This document shows positions 1,873 to 58,317 of a stretch of DNA of 58,317 bases, in pieces. The notes beneath the pieces were generated by a model, which saw nothing but the letters and a program-made list of their open reading frames with translations, searched no databases and was not told the origin of the DNA. Origin of the DNA: Pseudomonadota bacterium. Its GTDB lineage: Bacteria > CALINM01. How positions within the stretch are numbered: position 1 is the stretch's first letter; every line of letters starts with the position of its first letter. Position numbers and translations under genes: made by a program. The DNA is taken from contig JAOABK010000011.1 of the NCBI GenBank assembly GCA_026418415.1, positions 1 to 58,317 on the forward strand, written 5' to 3'.

Positions 1873-3171
1873 ATGAAAATATCAATATTTGGCACTGGGT
1901 ATGTAGGTCTGGTTACAGGTATATGTTTAGCGGAAAGTGGAAATGATGTAATAGGTTATGATGTAGATGAAGACAAAATTGCCTTACTTAAAAAAGGAAA
2001 ACTTCCTATATATGAACACGGATTAGATGAGCTTTTAGAAAGAAATCTTAAAGAGAAAAGAATCCAATTTACAACTGATCCCAAAAAAGCTGTTGAGAAC
2101 TCTCACATAATTTTTATCGCTGTTGGCACACCTTCCTCTGAAGATGGTTCAGCAAACCTCACTTACGTATTTGATTGCGTTGAAACAATAAAAAAATATG
2201 CAAATAGTGATAAAATTATTGTACTAAAAAGTACTGTTCCAGTAGGCACAGCAAGAAAAGCAAAAGAAATTGTTAAAAATTCTAAGTACAAACTATATAT
2301 TTGTTCCAATCCAGAATTCCTTAAAGAAGGTGTAGCTGTCGATGATTTTATGAAACCAGATAGAGTCGTTATTGGCGCTGATGATAATTATGTATTCGAA
2401 GTAATGAAAGAACTTTATGCACCTTTTGTCAGGAATGAAAGACCAATAATTTTAATGGATAATGCAAGCGCAGAGATGACTAAATACGCTGCAAATGCTC
2501 TGCTTGCTCTAAAAATATCCTTTATGAACGAGATTGCCCTTCTATGTGAAAGAGTAGGAGCTGATGTAGAAATGGTTAGAAAAGGTGTTGGGGCTGATCA
2601 GAGAATCAATTACGCCTTTCTTTTTCCAGGTGTTGGGTTCGGTGGCTCCTGTTTCCCCAAAGATGTTAGAGCTCTTGTGCATTTAGCAAAGGAATATAAT
2701 TTCGACTTAAAACTCCCCAAAGCAACTCTGGAAGTTAATGATAGACAAAAAAAGCATATTGTGGAAAGAATAAAAGAACATTTTAAAAATGATGTAAAGG
2801 GCAAAATCTTTGCTATATGGGGGCTGTCTTTTAAACCAAATACAGATGATATGAGAGAAGCAGCATCAATTACAATTATTAATGAACTGCTCAATTTAGG
2901 CGGAAAAATCAAAGCCTTTGATCCAAAGGCTATGGCTGAAGCAAAAAAGATTTTTGATAATAAAATTAATCTTTGTAAAGACCCTTATGATGCTCTTGAG
3001 AAGGCAGATGCACTTGTGCTTGTTACAGAATGGAATGAGTTTAGAAATCCCGATTTTGAAAAAATGAAATTAAAGATGAAGACCCCCATAATTTTTGATG
3101 GTAGAAACGTCTATAATCCTACAAAGATGCGATCTTTAGGATTTATATACTATGGTATTGGAAGGATTTAA
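1873..3171 (+). CDS. ugd: UDP-glucose 6-dehydrogenase
   Basis: Cytoplasmic enzyme oxidising UDP-glucose to UDP-glucuronate with two NAD+. The 432-residue length is normal for the family. An N-terminal Rossmann motif GTGYVGLV lies at residues 7-14, and the catalytic cysteine in GGSCFPKD falls at Cys260, the canonical position. A purine-rich GGGGG precedes the ATG at good distance. The stop TAA overlaps the next start by one base (TAATG), so the product is probably passed directly to the decarboxylase encoded next. Its role is supply of nucleotide sugars for lipopolysaccharide or other envelope glycans. Confidence 0.95.
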
Positions 3172-51811: not shown

Positions 51812-52285
51812 TCAAATATTTACTGACAGAATTTTGTTTGAGAGTTTCATAACCTCATCTAAATATATATCCATTCTTGATTTTAGAGTCTCGCTTATTT
51901 CACCAATTCCAGTAAAATCCTCAGGTACTATTCCAACTACATAACATTTAGCCTTTGAACCTAAAAATTTAGCTTTAATATAAGCATCTTCAATACCTAT
52001 ATCATGAAAAGAGACTGGTATAATTCTTTTAAAGACAGCCTCATCAAATGGTATCGTATATATAGTTCCTGGCAAATCATCTAATCTCAGGATATCAAGA
52101 AAAATTATATTTTCATACTCGAAAAAAAGGGGGATGAGGGAAAGGCCAGATGTGCCCCCCTCAATAAGTGTGCCTAAATCGAACTTTATTTCTTCTAATT
52201 TTTTAAGAGCAAATATTCCAAAACCATCATCTTTACAGAGTTCATTACCGATTCCTACTATAGCAAGCTTATTTCGCTTCTTCAT
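51812..52285 (-). CDS. hyaD: NiFe hydrogenase maturation protease
   Basis: 157 residues of the HyaD/HybD peptidase family: IVGIGNELCKDDGFG (nickel-ligating Glu), DILRLDDLPG (Asp) and SFHDIGIEDA (His). It cuts the C-terminal extension of the large subunit after nickel insertion. It overlaps the cytochrome b gene by 17 bases and is the last gene of the hydrogenase operon. Confidence 0.93.
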   Translation of the reverse strand: MKKRNKLAIVGIGNELCKDDGFGIFALKKLEEIKFDLGTLIEGGTSGLSLIPLFFEYENIIFLDILRLDDLPGTIYTIPFDEAVFKRIIPVSFHDIGIEDAYIKAKFLGSKAKCYVVGIVPEDFTGIGEISETLKSRMDIYLDEVMKLSNKILSVNI

Positions 52286-52865
52286 ATCCTGTAATCATTC
52301 CAATGTAATAGTCAAATATAGTAGCACCAGTTGTTCCAAGATAAAGATGAGCCATAAGAGATATTGAATAAAATATAGTTAAAATAAAATGCCAGAACCT
52401 CACATACCCAAGACCTGAAAACCAATCCACAACAACTGAAAACATCTCAGGCTCATATAAAGCAAAACCCGTTAAAAACTGAGGGACAAACACAATTGGC
52501 CAGATAGAATAGGCTAATTTCTGACCAGGGTTATATTTACCAAACTTTGGTTTTGGTGCATGTGTAAAAATACCATAGAGATAGTACTTCATTAGTGTGA
52601 GGAAACCTGGAATATCTCCAATTCTAAAAATAATATCTCTGTATTTCTTTGAAACAAAGAAATAGTAATAACCTCTTGCTGCGTAGCACCAAATAATTAG
52701 CCAGGCAAATATAAAATGCATATACCTTGCCATTGAGATACTTCCAAACATTGGAATCCATTCTGGCCAATGAATATGTAGACCAGTAAGTATAAGCATT
52801 ATCATGCAAAAGGCATGTAGCCAGTGTGTTAATCTTGGGAAAAGAGGATGTCTATATTCTTTCAT
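52269..52865 (-). CDS. hyaC: Ni/Fe-hydrogenase cytochrome b subunit
   Basis: 198 residues, four membrane helices with haem-ligating histidines (RLTHWLHAFCMIMLILTGLHIHWPEW, YMHFIFAWLIIW, RFWHFILTIFYSISLMAHLYLG). It anchors the hydrogenase to the inner membrane and passes electrons to the quinone pool. Ten bases downstream of hyaB. Confidence 0.92.
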   Translation of the reverse strand: MKEYRHPLFPRLTHWLHAFCMIMLILTGLHIHWPEWIPMFGSISMARYMHFIFAWLIIWCYAARGYYYFFVSKKYRDIIFRIGDIPGFLTLMKYYLYGIFTHAPKPKFGKYNPGQKLAYSIWPIVFVPQFLTGFALYEPEMFSVVVDWFSGLGYVRFWHFILTIFYSISLMAHLYLGTTGATIFDYYIGMITGYEEAK

Positions 52866-52874
52866 ATTTCCTCC

Positions 52875-54434
52875 CTATGCAACTCTAAAAGTTTTAACTT
52901 CATTACTCTCAGGTGTTATAACATGTATTGCACAGGCAAGACAGGGATCAAAGGATCTAACAACCCTAACTGCTTCTATTGGGTTTTCTGGATCTGCTAT
53001 TGGTGTACCAATCAATGCCTCTTCAATTACTCCTCTAACACCCTTATCGTCCCTTGGTCCACAATTCCATGTGGATGGAACTACACACTGATACCTTTCA
53101 ATTTTATGGTCTTTAATCTTAATCCAGTGACCCAATGCACCCCTTTGTGCCTCTGTAAGACCAAATCCCTCACTTTCCTTTGGTACCTCATAATGATTAT
53201 TAACAGGTTGACCAGGTTTAAGTTCTAACAACCATTTTTCTGTCTGTTCAGCTACGATTTTTAACTCTAAAGCTCTACAGGCATGTCTTCCAAGAACAGA
53301 AAATAGTGCTGAAACATCGGCATTCAAAGATTTTAATGTATTTGTAACAAGGTTTGACACTTCTGGTCTCTTTCCTGAAAGATGGGTTATTGCCATTCTC
53401 GCTAATGGTCCTACCTCCATAGGTTTTGTATTATACCTTGCCGCTTTAACCCATGTATAAGCGTTCGGTTTTTTTGGATCAGGAGTTGTCTCTCCTTCAA
53501 AGGGATGTAATCCTGTGGGTGAAGAATACTTAGCATAAAATACTTCTTCTTTTATATTCTTCTGGTCAAGGGTTTCTAATTTGCCTTCAATAAATGCACC
53601 TGGGATATGATAAGTTTCAGTGCCTTCATTATTTAATTCAAATATACCATAGGCAAGCAAGTTTTTATAACCAGCGCCTATCTTAAACCATTGGGGGTAT
53701 GCTTTTGCAACCGCAATAACATCGGGGATATAACAGGCATCAATAAACTCTTTTATTTTTCTTAGTCTATATAAATAAGATGCTATCCTCTCTGCTGTTA
53801 CAGTTTCTGCTACTCCACCTGGGACAATACCAGTTACATGGGGCATTTTTCCACCCCAGATTGCTATCATTTCCTGAGCAGTTCTTGCAATTTCAAAGGC
53901 CTTCACATAATGATTGATGGCAGTTAGATTTAGTTCTTTGTCTTTTATATAATCGCCTTTATATCTTGGTAAAAATGGTGCACCAGCAGTTTTACTACCC
54001 GTACTAACCTCTTTTTTTACCCATTCTTTAATATTATTCATTGTGGGATCATTGCCCTTATATTCAAGTATTGCGGTAATGTCAACAAAATCAAGAGCAA
54101 CTAGATGATAAAAGTGAAGTATATGAGAATGAAGAAGATTTCCTGCAGCCATTAAATTTCTTATAATTCTCCCATTATCAGGTGGTGTCACTTTAAATGC
54201 AGAATCTAAAGCCTTAACAGAAGCCATTGCATGAGCAACAGGACAAACACCACAAATTCTTTGAGTTACATTTACCGCATCCTGAGGATCTCTACCCTTC
54301 AGTATAATTTCCCATCCTCTAAACATATCACCTCTTGCCCAGGCATCTTTAATTCTTCCACCTTCTACTTCTATTTCTATAGAATAATGTCCTTCGATTC
54401 GTGTAATTGGATCTATAACAACCTTCTTAGCCAT
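52875..54434 (-). CDS. hyaB: [NiFe] hydrogenase large subunit, membrane-bound uptake type
   Basis: 519 residues. The Ni-Fe ligands are both Cys pairs: RICGVC (Cys61, Cys64) and DPCLACAIH (Cys498, Cys501). Processing would occur after His504, releasing the 15-residue tail VITPESNEVKTFRVA. No selenocysteine variant. The Glu and Arg residues around the active site (RIEGH near the start) are normal. It pairs with the small subunit encoded three bases upstream and the HyaD protease downstream. Confidence 0.95.
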   Translation of the reverse strand: MAKKVVIDPITRIEGHYSIEIEVEGGRIKDAWARGDMFRGWEIILKGRDPQDAVNVTQRICGVCPVAHAMASVKALDSAFKVTPPDNGRIIRNLMAAGNLLHSHILHFYHLVALDFVDITAILEYKGNDPTMNNIKEWVKKEVSTGSKTAGAPFLPRYKGDYIKDKELNLTAINHYVKAFEIARTAQEMIAIWGGKMPHVTGIVPGGVAETVTAERIASYLYRLRKIKEFIDACYIPDVIAVAKAYPQWFKIGAGYKNLLAYGIFELNNEGTETYHIPGAFIEGKLETLDQKNIKEEVFYAKYSSPTGLHPFEGETTPDPKKPNAYTWVKAARYNTKPMEVGPLARMAITHLSGKRPEVSNLVTNTLKSLNADVSALFSVLGRHACRALELKIVAEQTEKWLLELKPGQPVNNHYEVPKESEGFGLTEAQRGALGHWIKIKDHKIERYQCVVPSTWNCGPRDDKGVRGVIEEALIGTPIADPENPIEAVRVVRSFDPCLACAIHVITPESNEVKTFRVA

Positions 54435-54437
54435 TAT

Positions 54438-55502
54438 TTATTCCCCCTTTGATTCTTTATTTTCTTCTTTTTTCTTCTTTGATGATAAAGCTCTACCCAC
54501 TGCGTGAGCTATTATTCCACCCACAGTAGCTGCTCCAACAACTGTACCAAACTTATCTGCTTTCACCTTTAATCCAGGAATCCCTGGTACTTTTGCTTCT
54601 GGTAGTCTCATATAAATTCCATTACCTGTTGAACCAATGAAACTCTCTGCTGCACATCCAATACAAGGAGAACCTCCCCTAATGGGCCAGTTAAGACCAG
54701 AGTTCCATTGATAATTCGGGCAATCATTATATGTAATAGGACCTTTACATCCTAAAAGATACATACATTTTTTTTCTGCAAATGTCTTTGCAAAATCACC
54801 CTTCTCAAAAAATGGTCTCATCTCACAGTTATCATGAATAAGCCTTGCAAAGAAAACCATAGGCCTTCTTTTACTATCAAGTTCTGGCATACCAAAGAGT
54901 TTCAAATGAGCCAACAAACCTACTAAATGGTGAGGTCTTGCTGGACAGCCTGGAAGGTTTACAACTTTTTTGGGATCTATTATTGCTGTAACTGGTTTAG
55001 CACCTGTTGGATTAGGTTCTGCTGCTGGAATTCCACCCCATGTTGCGCAGGTGCCAAGGGCAACAACGTACATTGCTTTCTCACCCAAGTCCTTAACCCA
55101 CTTAAGAAATGTAATTGGCTTCCCTGTATCATCTTCTCCAATGGTGCAATAAATACCATCATCTTTAACAGGAACTGCCCCTTCAACCACAAGAATAAAT
55201 TTTTCATTACTTTTTAATGCTTCATGAAGAACATCAATACATTGATGACCTGATGCAGCCATTACTGTTTGATGAAACTTAAGAGAGATAATATCAGTTA
55301 CAATATCAACTACAGTGGGCTGAACTGTATTAAGAATTGATTCCGAACATCCTGCATCAGTTTGCCCTTGTATCCAAATTACTGGAATATTTTTGTTCCC
55401 CTTTTCTAATGCTTCAGCAACTTTTGTAAGAAAAGGAGACGTAAGCATCGCAGCACCTAACCCACCTGCTGCTTTCAGAAAATCCCTTCTCGTTAATCTC
55501 AT
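54438..55502 (-). CDS. hyaA: [NiFe] hydrogenase small subunit with Tat signal and Asp in the proximal-cluster motif
   Basis: 354 residues. Tat signal RRDFLKAAGG at residues 5-14. Proximal-cluster motif GQTDAGCSES has Asp49 where the usual motif CTGC has its first Cys; Cys52 is kept. Later ligands are present: GTCATWGG, GCPARPHHL, DNCEMRP, CMYLLGCKGP, NDCPNYQWN and PCIGC (a 3Fe-4S-type medial site). A short hydrophobic C-terminus (VVGAATVGGIIAHAVG) could anchor the protein. Exported folded with HyaB. A sigma-54 promoter lies upstream. Confidence 0.94.
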   Translation of the reverse strand: MRLTRRDFLKAAGGLGAAMLTSPFLTKVAEALEKGNKNIPVIWIQGQTDAGCSESILNTVQPTVVDIVTDIISLKFHQTVMAASGHQCIDVLHEALKSNEKFILVVEGAVPVKDDGIYCTIGEDDTGKPITFLKWVKDLGEKAMYVVALGTCATWGGIPAAEPNPTGAKPVTAIIDPKKVVNLPGCPARPHHLVGLLAHLKLFGMPELDSKRRPMVFFARLIHDNCEMRPFFEKGDFAKTFAEKKCMYLLGCKGPITYNDCPNYQWNSGLNWPIRGGSPCIGCAAESFIGSTGNGIYMRLPEAKVPGIPGLKVKADKFGTVVGAATVGGIIAHAVGRALSSKKKKEENKESKGE

Positions 55503-55543: not shown

Positions 55544-55559
55544 ATCAAAGGTTGTGCCA
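55544..55559 (-). promoter_or_regulatory. Sigma-54 (-24/-12) promoter of the hydrogenase operon
   Basis: Minus strand TGGCACAACCTTTGAT: the -24 TGGCAC is perfect and the conserved GG and -12 G are ten bases apart as required. The only mismatch to TTGCW is A for C. A GGGAGG ribosome site and the hyaA ATG follow about 40 bases further. Confidence 0.75.
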
Positions 55560-55610: not shown

Positions 55611-55648
55611 TGTAATATTACAATGACAGTGTAAAGATTTGATTACAC
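55611..55648. promoter_or_regulatory. Candidate enhancer (UAS) for the sigma-54 activator
   Basis: Two inverted repeats of the same half-site: the perfect 12-base palindrome tgtaatattaca (55611-55622), and gtgtaa-8-ttacac (55629-55648). A further attaca half-site is at 55575. They lie about 50-90 bases upstream of the -24 element, typical for enhancer-binding proteins. Confidence 0.55.
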
Positions 55649-55659
55649 AAAATTAAAAA

Positions 55660-57927
55660 TTAGTGCCTGAATATGTCTTCTCTTTTTATATTATGTTTTT
55701 TCATTAAATTATGGAAGGTTGGCCTCGGTATGCCTGCAAGCTCTGCAGCCTTTTTTACATTTCCCATAGACTGTTTTAGAAATCTTTTTATCAAATTTCT
55801 TTCAAATTGCTGAAGGTGTTCTTCTCTTAAATCCCATAAATTTTTATTAACCGGTAAGCTTTCCAGCTCAGGAGAAGTATTCTGTATATATATAGGAAAA
55901 TCCTTTAGCTTTAACTCCTCTCCCTGTGCAAGAATTACAGCTCTTTCCACTACATTTGCTAATTCTCTTATGTTGCCTGGCCAATGATAGGCTTTGAGAT
56001 ACCTAATTACTTCCTTCTCTACACTTTTTATTTTCTTTCCTATCTTTTTAGATGCACTATCTATAAGATGATGCAAAAAGTATGGAATATCGTCTTTTCT
56101 TTCTCTTAGGGGTGGCAATGTAATTGTAAAAACATTGAGTCTGTAATATAAATCTTCTCTAAATTTTCCTTCTTTTATTAACTCTTCTAAATTTCTATTT
56201 GTTGCTGCTATTACTCGAACATCAACCTTTTTCACTTCAGTACTTCCAATTGCTCTTATTTCACCATTTTGTAAAACTCTAAGAAGCTTTGTCTGCAAAT
56301 TTATAGGCATATCCCCTATTTCATCGAGAAATATAGTACCATTATTTGCCGCTTCAAATAGCCCCTTCTTATTTTCAGTTGCGCCAGTAAAAGAGCCTTT
56401 TACATGACCAAAAAGTTCGCTTTCTAATAGGTTCTCATTTAAAGTAGTACAATTTACTGTAATCATTGGTTTGTTTTTTCTGTTAGACTTTTGGTGAATA
56501 AGTATCGCTAACATCTCTTTGCCTGTTCCACTCTCTCCCCTTAGTAAAACAGTTGTGCTTGTTGGTGCAACCTTTTCAATCTGATCCCAAATCTCTCTCA
56601 TTTTATGTGTTTTTCCTAATATAAATCCAAAATCCTTATCCTTATACAATTCATTTTGTATAACCTGATAATCCTGTAACAATGTGAGATTGTTTATTGA
56701 CATTTTATTTAGAAGGTAGGGCAAACACATCTCTATTTCGGCGAGACCTATAACAACAGCTTTTGCCTTCTCATAACAGTTTTCATATCCACAGGCACCA
56801 CAATTTAAATTTTCTCCACCATTGTATACCTTCATCTCGTCAAGTACCCTTTTTATATCCTCTTCCTTTGGTTCTATGAAAATTAGTCTATCTTTTTTTG
56901 AAAACTCCCTTAAAAGACCTTTGTCTGGAAATGGATACTCTTCTCCAGCCGACTGGAAATAATAGTTTTTAACATAATTAACTACCCTTTCAACCCTTTC
57001 ATGGAGGCTACCTTTATTTTGCATTACCGGTCCATCAATACAGCCTTTACAAAATAGCATATCAACAAACTTGGGTTTTATTCTTCCGCTCTTTAGAGCC
57101 TCAAAAAAACTTAAAACTTCATCCTTACCATCCACAACAATTATATCTGTCTCTAAAATGTCAGTACCAATAGAAGCTGTTTTTAAAAGTCCTCCAGATA
57201 AAGCAAATGCTCTACCTATTCTTGGAAAATATCCATCAAAATCGGAAAAGTTTTTTCTTTTTGGATCTATATTAAACTCACTAAAAAAGCAATCTAACTC
57301 TTTAAAAGTCCAAACATTATCAATACACACATTTTCAAAATTATCATGTATCTCAGATTTTTTTGCTACACAGGGCCCAATGAAAGTAATGTGTGCATCC
57401 TTAAAACGCTCTTTCAAAAACCGCCCCATTGCAATCATCGGCGAAACAATATTAACTAAATTTGGAATAAACTCTGGATAATACTTACATACAAGATTAA
57501 CAATTGCGGGACATGGAGAAGATATAAAAGTATTTTCATTTTTTTCACTAATCGCCTTGTTTAGAAAACCTCTATAACTCTCCGCAACCAGCTCTGCACC
57601 ATAAGCGGTTTCATAAACATAATCAAAACCTAACTTTCTTAATGCTGCAACAAGTTGGAGGGGATGGGAGTCATTATAATATGACACAAAGGAAGGTGCT
57701 AAAAGAGCAATCTTTGTTTTACCGCTCTGAAGCAACTCGTGTATGGACATACCCATTTCCACTGCCTTTGCATCCTGAGAACATAACTTTATACAATTAC
57801 CACAGGATATACAATTTTCTTTCAATACAAATGCCTGATCATTTTGAACTTTGATAGCTTTAACTGGACAACCCCTTATGCAGGAATAACATTTTTTACA
57901 TAATCCTTCCTTTGTTTGAATAATCAT
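55660..57927 (-). CDS. [FeFe]-hydrogenase-like sensor fused to a sigma-54 activator
   Basis: 755 residues. Order: two 4Fe-4S ferredoxin motifs (Cys10-20, 39-49); an [FeFe]-hydrogenase-like domain (about 70-330) with SSPCPA (Cys139), GPCVAKKSE (Cys186) and FCKGC (Cys293, Cys296), which match H-cluster ligands; an ARC 4Fe-4S motif (Cys376, 379, 384, 401); an AAA+ domain with Walker A GESGTGK (464-470), GSFTGA (511-516, variant of GAFTGA) and Walker B IFLDEIGD; and a Fis-type helix-turn-helix at the C-terminus. The usual TSCCP is SSPCP, so the proton-transfer Cys is Pro. It probably senses hydrogen or redox state and activates the adjacent hydrogenase operon. It could alternatively be a redox regulator without an H-cluster. 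Confidence 0.85.
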   Translation of the reverse strand: MIIQTKEGLCKKCYSCIRGCPVKAIKVQNDQAFVLKENCISCGNCIKLCSQDAKAVEMGMSIHELLQSGKTKIALLAPSFVSYYNDSHPLQLVAALRKLGFDYVYETAYGAELVAESYRGFLNKAISEKNENTFISSPCPAIVNLVCKYYPEFIPNLVNIVSPMIAMGRFLKERFKDAHITFIGPCVAKKSEIHDNFENVCIDNVWTFKELDCFFSEFNIDPKRKNFSDFDGYFPRIGRAFALSGGLLKTASIGTDILETDIIVVDGKDEVLSFFEALKSGRIKPKFVDMLFCKGCIDGPVMQNKGSLHERVERVVNYVKNYYFQSAGEEYPFPDKGLLREFSKKDRLIFIEPKEEDIKRVLDEMKVYNGGENLNCGACGYENCYEKAKAVVIGLAEIEMCLPYLLNKMSINNLTLLQDYQVIQNELYKDKDFGFILGKTHKMREIWDQIEKVAPTSTTVLLRGESGTGKEMLAILIHQKSNRKNKPMITVNCTTLNENLLESELFGHVKGSFTGATENKKGLFEAANNGTIFLDEIGDMPINLQTKLLRVLQNGEIRAIGSTEVKKVDVRVIAATNRNLEELIKEGKFREDLYYRLNVFTITLPPLRERKDDIPYFLHHLIDSASKKIGKKIKSVEKEVIRYLKAYHWPGNIRELANVVERAVILAQGEELKLKDFPIYIQNTSPELESLPVNKNLWDLREEHLQQFERNLIKRFLKQSMGNVKKAAELAGIPRPTFHNLMKKHNIKREDIFRH

Positions 57928-57935
57928 AAGATCCC

Positions 57936-58317
57936 CTATCTTAGAAATTCAGTAAACTTATCTAATAGACCATTATATTTTGCTATAAAAACACCATAAT
58001 TGGTTAGAGGTATATTTTTACTGGTAAAATATTCTTGTCTTTTTTTCATATCCCTTTCAGATAACATACATCCACCACAGTGTAATGCAAACCTTACACT
58101 TTCTAATTCTTGAAAATTTTGATGTATTCCTGAGAAGAAAACAAAATTAAGTTTCTTTCCTGTTGTCTTTTCTAATAGTTTTGGAAGAACCTCTCTTCCC
58201 ATATCCCCCTCTAATCTATGGTGAGTACAGGCTTCTATGATCGCAACTTTATCCCCTTCTTTAAGGCTATCAATTAAATAACAGGAATCGAGCAGGGATT
58301 TAAAATTACCTTTATAT
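57936..58317 (-). CDS. hydF: [FeFe]-hydrogenase maturation GTPase HydF, 3' part only
   Basis: The frame is open to the right edge, so the N-terminal GTPase domain lies outside. The visible 127 residues contain EACTHH, followed exactly 46 residues after CTH by HCGGC: the HydF cluster signature CxH-x46-53-HCxxC. NYGVFIA near the end also fits. HydF carries the di-iron precursor of the H-cluster. Its presence beside an [FeFe]-hydrogenase-like regulator implies the cofactor is made in this organism. The gap to the regulator gene is eight bases. Confidence 0.92.
   Translation of the reverse strand, partial: YKGNFKSLLDSCYLIDSLKEGDKVAIIEACTHHRLEGDMGREVLPKLLEKTTGKKLNFVFFSGIHQNFQELESVRFALHCGGCMLSERDMKKRQEYFTSKNIPLTNYGVFIAKYNGLLDKFTEFLR

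Follow-up and report, generated by a model that had tools for sequence, protein, structure and literature searches.

A contig of a Pseudomonadota bacterium (JAOABK010000011.1; the whole stretch analysed, 58,317 nucleotides, is called the window) carries a single gene in which a [FeFe]-hydrogenase-like domain is fused to a sigma-54 activator. The fusion is probably a one-component sigma-54 activator that responds to H2 and switches on an uptake [NiFe] hydrogenase, whose operon lies downstream. On balance, and with less assurance, it can also be regarded as a transcription factor with its own H-cluster, in an organism that keeps HydE, HydF and HydG for the cofactor of a regulator and not of an energy enzyme. 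Such a protein would sense H2, bind its own operators, and fire sigma-54 polymerase at the [NiFe] operon and at its own maturation operon.

The fusion consists of the following parts.

55660-57927, minus strand: fusion open reading frame, 755 amino acids, ATG start, comprising ferredoxin clusters, H-domain, FeS domain, sigma-54 AAA+ module and Fis helix-turn-helix (open reading frame call, Pfam).
57781-57912, minus strand: two ferredoxin-type [4Fe-4S] motifs, residues 6-49, with cysteines 10, 13, 16, 20, 39, 42, 45 and 49 (Pfam Fer4_10, cysteines).
57028-57711, minus strand: H-domain, Fe_hyd_lg_C, residues 73-300, with Cys139, Cys186, Lys189, Glu192, Cys293 and Cys296 (Pfam, alignment).
56719-56811, minus strand: C-terminal FeS domain (PF04060/ARC), residues 373-403, Cx2Cx4Cx16C, with Cys376, 379, 384 and 401 (Pfam).
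56122-56622, minus strand: sigma-54 interaction AAA+ domain, residues 436-602 (Pfam Sigma54_activat).
55867-56106, minus strand: AAA+ lid, AAA_lid_14, residues 608-687 (Pfam).
55696-55815, minus strand: Fis-family helix-turn-helix, HTH_8, residues 705-744 (Pfam).

The reading frame, its strand and its coordinates were confirmed, as was every domain that the original prediction had named. In the 755-residue protein, Fe_hyd_lg_C scores 156.6 bits against a cut-off of 22.1, Sigma54_activat 245.3 bits, and HTH_8 29.8 bits against a cut-off of 22. The same scan gave no match to PAS, a domain that follows the FeS domain in the group C M2f enzymes of the TmHydS type.

The same single reading frame is present in all three genomes of the family in the set: that of the window (G000, 92% complete), one of the same genus (G001) and one of the same family (G002). 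Homologous frames with this architecture lie at L110 8803-11070 (G001) and L111 108-2363, and identity over the N-terminal 425 residues is 85% for G001 and 69% for G002. Because the architecture is conserved in all three genomes, an assembly chimera is ruled out.

The output half of the protein has every catalytic motif that was checked: Walker A GESGTGKE, Walker B IFLDE, and the arginine-finger region REDLYYRL. The GAFTGA-type L1 loop of the AAA+ domain reads GSFTGA in the window and GAFTGA in the same-genus genome, and GSFTGA variants have been described as remaining activation-competent (PMC6615313). Judged from these motifs, together with the lid and the C-terminal Fis-type helix-turn-helix, the protein appears to be a sigma-54 enhancer-binding protein.

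The sensory half resembles an H-cluster domain. Cysteines 139, 186, 293 and 296, proposed earlier as ligand candidates, align with the H-cluster ligand positions when the fusion is placed beside its relatives and rows of HydA. The three motifs read SSPCP (L1), GPCVAKKSE (L2) and CKGC (L3). Thus TSCCP, MPC and CxxxC of prototypical group A HydA are replaced by SSPCP, GPC and CxxC, and the last of these is the shortened motif already noted in the original prediction. Two positions that vary in sensory enzymes are altered as in groups C and D: Pro138 stands at the C299 position and Gly184 at the M353 position. Sensory enzymes have been reported to carry Cys (17%), Ala (about 43%) or Pro (about 10%) at C299, and mostly Gly, Ser or Thr at M353 (PMC10055695). 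The proline in place of the proton-transfer cysteine is within the sensory range, as is the glycine, but it is not conserved, since the same-genus protein has alanine there. The ARC motif of the original prediction is precisely Cx2Cx4Cx16C, the exact motif published for sensory [FeFe]-hydrogenases of groups C and D (PMC8163306).

The spacing of L3 also points to a sensor and not a catalyst. In the alignment table, which covers those of 96 reading frames that lie in mapped loci and align over 200 residues or more, CxxC occurs in 19 sequences from 18 genomes; all are histidine-kinase or sigma-54 fusions and none is a HydA. Architecture labels were assigned by regular expressions and length, and HydA rows cut at locus ends were labelled 'PAS/other' or 'short'. 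The CxxC motif is thus common to histidine-kinase-linked relatives and not unique to the fusion, whose H-domain is nearest to these kinase-linked sequences (39% identity to the kinase fusion of genome G027).

Several CxxC sensor kinases have HydA neighbours. In seven genomes (G146, G346, G330, G304, G121, G326 and G316) such a kinase directly adjoins a HydA gene on the same strand; the neighbour loci are L152-L155, L158, L162 and L163. Eight HydA-type sequences (L127, L129, L130, L131, L134, L139, L140 and L199) read TSCS, not TSCC, in L1, with Ser at the cubane-ligand position, and seven of these eight adjoin CxxC sensor kinases.

The fusion retains Lys189 and Glu192 in L2, which correspond to the conserved lysine and glutamate of that motif (K358 and E361 in CpI). 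Among genomes without a HydA-grade domain, the lysine is kept in three of three that have the maturases and in two of nine that have neither HydF nor HydG, so that it is gone in seven of the nine (Fisher p 0.045). The sample is small and the genomes are not phylogenetically independent, and the association is taken as a lead only.

The gene neighbourhood connects the fusion with H-cluster assembly. Directly before the sensor gene lies a maturase gene.

57936-58316, minus strand: C-terminal part of the H-cluster maturation GTPase HydF, truncated at the contig end and separated from the sensor gene by 8 bases (Pfam).

In G001 the order on one strand is hydG, hydE, hydF, sensor, [NiFe] small subunit, large subunit, cytochrome b and protease. 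In G000 this order is interrupted by two contig ends. Contig C118 closes with hydG, hydE and the front half of hydF, and the minus strand of the window opens with the last third of hydF, followed by the sensor. HydE, HydF and HydG are thus all encoded in G000, HydF in two pieces. The sensor closes a hydG-hydE-hydF-sensor operon, which stands ahead of the [NiFe] hydrogenase operon. In G002, the last 36 codons of the open frame before the sensor resemble the HydF C-terminus (judged by eye); HydG and part of HydE are on a second contig, and the [NiFe] large subunit, cytochrome and protease on a third. NCBIfam matches above cut-off were obtained for HydG and HydE of G000, HydF of G001 and HydG of G002. 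A second HydG-like match in G000 (contig C70) was rejected as a maturase; it sits in a thiamin cluster (L007) and was judged ThiH-like by its neighbours.

A single PF02906 domain is found in G000, G002 and G027, and in G000 and G002 it is the sensor. Since no [FeFe]-hydrogenase domain apart from the sensor was found in G000, the maturases have no other visible client there. With the adjoining hydG-hydE-hydF and the [NiFe] operon downstream, this backs the one-component sensor proposed earlier. A comparable case is G027 (100% complete), where the sole PF02906 protein is a CxxC kinase fusion clustered with hydE, hydG and hydF.

Across 386 genomes, HydF and PF02906 tend to occur together. HydF was found in 88 genomes, 86 of which also have PF02906. 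By grade of the best PF02906 match, it was found in 81 of 99 genomes with a HydA-grade domain, 5 of 12 with a middle-grade domain, 0 of 18 with weak matches only (weaker than 1e-30) and 2 of 257 with none; G002 was counted as HydF-negative in this survey. In four genomes with HydA-grade domains (G080, G081, G146 and G301) neither HydF nor HydG was found, for which missing contigs or another maturation route are possible explanations.

Related fusions were also found outside the family. The N-terminal profile is matched at 1e-40 by 72 of the 386 genomes; whole reading frames were examined for 30 loci and 20 larger regions, and fusions in other matches would escape. Sigma-54 fusions occur in at least five genomes: G000, G001, G002, G310 and G110. 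Those of G310 and G110 have altered or degraded H-domain motifs (SSCIAAKFE; no L3 pair), in genomes with no HydF and no HydG over cut-off, and from their sequences they are possibly redox sensors derived from hydrogenases. They lie at L166 7121-9394, minus strand (G310), and L171 6758-9037, minus strand (G110), and one of them stands beside cheD-cheB-cheR. In a tree made by a quick method, the sigma-54-fusion label needs three changes, of which well-supported branches force only one; several branches are long and the placement of G110 and G274 is uncertain. The sigma-54 fusions may thus have arisen once or several times. A full-length homology search of genome contigs gave matches driven by the AAA+ module, and none of the 80 loci recovered (L010-L089) held a relative of the N-terminus. 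A pattern search for relatives in viral contigs gave 74 matches, none of which encodes one.

An alternative for the sensory half is a redox or Fe-S-status sensor, in which the H-domain holds a [4Fe-4S] cluster only, or has no [2Fe] subsite, and reads the cellular reduction state instead of H2. CxxC-type sensors are found in four genomes where neither HydF nor HydG was found (G148, G285, G060 and G200), and in G148 and G285 their L2 motif is apparently usable. For this reason CxxC alone is no proof of an H-cluster, and the H-domain of the fusion may signal without one. The degraded sigma-54 fusions of G310 and G110 point the same way, as does L3 of the fusion itself, which lacks one residue relative to characterised enzymes and departs from the CxxxC of sensory groups C and D. 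On the other side, in G000 and G001 the sensor belongs to the same operon as hydG, hydE and hydF, no second client of the maturases was found in G000 or G002, and Lys189 and Glu192 are kept where most HydF-less sensors have lost them. A redox sensor is thus unlikely, but it is the alternative that survives best.

Some further points weigh against an H-cluster-bearing sensor. Of the 99 genomes that have a HydA-grade domain, 18 gave no HydF match, and finding HydF or not finding it is therefore a fallible indicator. Because G000 is 92% complete, a second hydrogenase could be missing from the assembly, and the same-genus genome does encode, on a contig of 5.1 kb, a HydA together with a further HydG. 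An AlphaFold2 model of residues 1-425, made from the single sequence without an alignment, reached a mean predicted local distance difference test score of 35.2 and a predicted template modelling score of 0.23, and was not used.

The predicted target of the fusion is the [NiFe] operon that follows it.

54438-55502, minus strand: [NiFe] hydrogenase small subunit with twin-arginine translocation (Tat) signal, gene 1 of the predicted target operon (Pfam).
52875-54434, minus strand: [NiFe] hydrogenase large subunit (Pfam).
52269-52865, minus strand: hydrogenase b-type cytochrome (Pfam).
51812-52285, minus strand: hydrogenase maturation protease (Pfam).
55629-55648, minus strand: predicted operator 1 (upstream activating sequence), GTGTAATCAAATCTTTACAC (palindrome pattern).
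55611-55628, minus strand: predicted operator 2, TGTCATTGTAATATTACA, adjoining operator 1 (tandem arrangement also in L110).
55544-55559, minus strand: sigma-54-like -24/-12 element before the [NiFe] operon, TGGCACAACCTTTGAT, with -12 GA and not GC (conserved block in L110).

A single perfect dyad of 6 bp, GTGTAA-N8-TTACAC, lies within the 157 bp upstream of the [NiFe] operon, and it recurs ahead of hydG. The shared motif was first noticed by eye and then tested by shuffling, where 5 of 5000 pairs of shuffled regions had any dyad of this kind in common. The pattern GTGTWAT-N6-WTTACAC has four strand-matches in the window against 0.06 expected. Genome-wide, perfect palindrome sites occur only at hydG and the [NiFe] operon, both in G000 (2.03 Mb) and in G001; in G002 the site lies inside hydG. 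As the pattern was built from these very sites, the test is their exclusivity and not their presence. Sites with one mismatch elsewhere are mostly intragenic.

Before the [NiFe] operon a second site lies directly beside the first in both G000 and G001, in front of the conserved block GGCACAnCCTTTGATAT. The distance between the centre of the first site and the -12 G is 92.5 and 93.5 bases in the two species. A full sigma-54 consensus, TGGCAT-N5-TTGCT, precedes hydG and is conserved in G000, G001 and G002. The fusion can therefore be assigned, by prediction, both an upstream activating sequence and a -24/-12 promoter, as expected for an enhancer-binding protein.

These sites could also be read differently. 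The protein might be an H2 or redox sensor that represses, or that acts mainly at hydG as maturase autoregulation, with the [NiFe] operon mainly under other control. At hydG the palindrome is downstream of the sigma-54 element and abuts the start codon, with three bases between it and the ATG in G000; this is a typical position for a repressor and would suit one. The -12 element of the [NiFe] operon is imperfect (GA), and a scan of the window for the sigma-54 consensus gave 28 matches against 18.1 expected, mildly above chance; both weigh against the proposed activation. Tandem operators about 93 bases upstream of a conserved -24/-12 block in two species, and an AAA+ module with all of its checked catalytic motifs, speak against this explanation, which is improbable. 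Less probable still is a sensor of CO or O2, inhibitors of the cluster, in place of H2: general chemistry allows it, as H-clusters bind CO and react with O2, but the predicted target is a hydrogenase and not a CO or O2 system.

Other elements were seen around these operons. Further operator-like palindromes lie at 58080-58099 of the window (in hydF; also in G001, within conserved coding sequence), at 54732-54749 (in the [NiFe] small-subunit gene) and at L203 2063-2082 (in hydG of G002). Between the sigma-54 consensus and hydG come, in this order, a stretch rich in C (CUUUCUCCCUCCC), a GC hairpin and six T.

L116 3395-3480 (G000), L110 5171-5256 (G001) and L203 about 2375-2441, minus strand (G002): C-rich/hairpin region before hydG.

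G000 and G001 have almost the same sequence here, and folding z-scores are -1.4, -2.0 and -4.5. The stretch had no Rfam match, and no terminator was predicted in a scan of the G000 region; by its sequence it is a candidate sigma-54-dependent short RNA or attenuator. A cobalamin riboswitch (96.4 bits) lies at L110 14940-15126, after the hydrogenase operon and before cobalamin-type genes, and the window shows the same gene order downstream of the hydrogenase operon.

Taken as an H2-responsive activator, the fusion would work as follows. The N-terminal 300 residues would form a low-activity sensory [FeFe]-hydrogenase unit with two [4Fe-4S] clusters and an H-cluster, the latter presumably occupied and assembled by the co-encoded HydG, HydE and HydF. 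Enhancer-binding proteins occupy upstream sites as dimers, and their AAA+ ring is usually held in check by the N-terminal domain (PMC7175178). In TamHydS, H2 alters the secondary structure but does not reduce the C-terminal cluster (PMC13104023). From these two precedents it is proposed that H2, presumably the signal, reacts at the H-cluster and refolds the FeS region. The conformational change would pass by a presumably allosteric route through the Cx2Cx4Cx16C domain and a short linker to the AAA+ ring, which would be released to remodel sigma-54 RNA polymerase. The Fis-type helix-turn-helix would meanwhile keep the protein on its TGTAAT-N6-WTTACA operators, before the Tat-exported [NiFe] hydrogenase operon and its own hydG-E-F-sensor operon. 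The Tat-exported, cytochrome-linked target suggests H2 uptake, which makes activation by H2 the likelier sign.

The nearest class in HydDB is group C, whose links, in the cited part of PMC5037454, are to a kinase (C1, 'histidine kinase-linked (putative)'), chemotaxis and a phosphatase, with no direct transcription activation. The fusion shares with C1 the ferredoxin clusters, H-domain, Cx2Cx4Cx16C FeS domain and altered C299 and M353 positions, the kinase fusions being compared here by architecture and not by HydDB class. It is not filed under C1, C2 or C3, because the chain itself carries a sigma-54 AAA+/Fis module as its output, in place of a kinase, chemotaxis receptor or phosphatase. Characterised sensory enzymes also resemble it. 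TmHydS and TamHydS have the same N-to-C cluster layout and a replaced proton-transfer cysteine (PMC8163306; PMC13104023), and TmHydS has Gly at the M353 position as well. Unlike the fusion, TmHydS has a PAS domain, which TamHydS lacks; neither is described with a DNA-binding output in the passages cited, and neither has the CxxC form of L3.

An example of a comparable cascade is RH-HoxJ-HoxA of Cupriavidus necator, which senses H2 and requires sigma-54 (PMC10073562). By analogy, the fusion would likewise couple H2 sensing to activation of sigma-54-dependent [NiFe] hydrogenase promoters, without being a member of that type: that cascade relies on a [NiFe] enzyme for sensing, and its kinase and response regulator are distinct proteins, whereas the fusion is one [FeFe]-type polypeptide. 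The DNA site recalls another Fis-type regulator, TyrR, which binds TGTAAA-N6-TTTACA with G-N14-C (PMC4374768). The operators have the layout TGTAAW-N6-WTTACA with G-N14-C in tandem sites; TyrR senses aromatic amino acids, and the likeness concerns the DNA site only.

The domain combination is not unprecedented, because Fer4, Fe_hyd_lg_C and FeS were listed in 2019 among the regulatory domains of Clostridiales enhancer-binding proteins (PMC6615313). That list uses the same domain vocabulary as the fusion. Unlike the window fusion, those proteins are given no function, operon or target in the section on them. What is new is a maturase-linked member of the fusion type with a predicted operator and target. 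No functional study of such a fusion was found in the literature, where coverage of subscription journals was thin.

The sensory roles of group C and D [FeFe]-hydrogenases are still termed putative (PMC8924675, PMC10055695, PMC13104023), partly because the output partner is unclear. With an output module, an operator and a predicted target in one locus, H2 sensing by an H-cluster becomes a direct question of in vitro transcription. If the proposal is true, the fusion would be a single-chain [FeFe] counterpart to the RH-HoxJ-HoxA cascade and a compact H2-responsive switch for synthetic biology. It would also be a case in which H-cluster biosynthesis has been retained for signalling alone.

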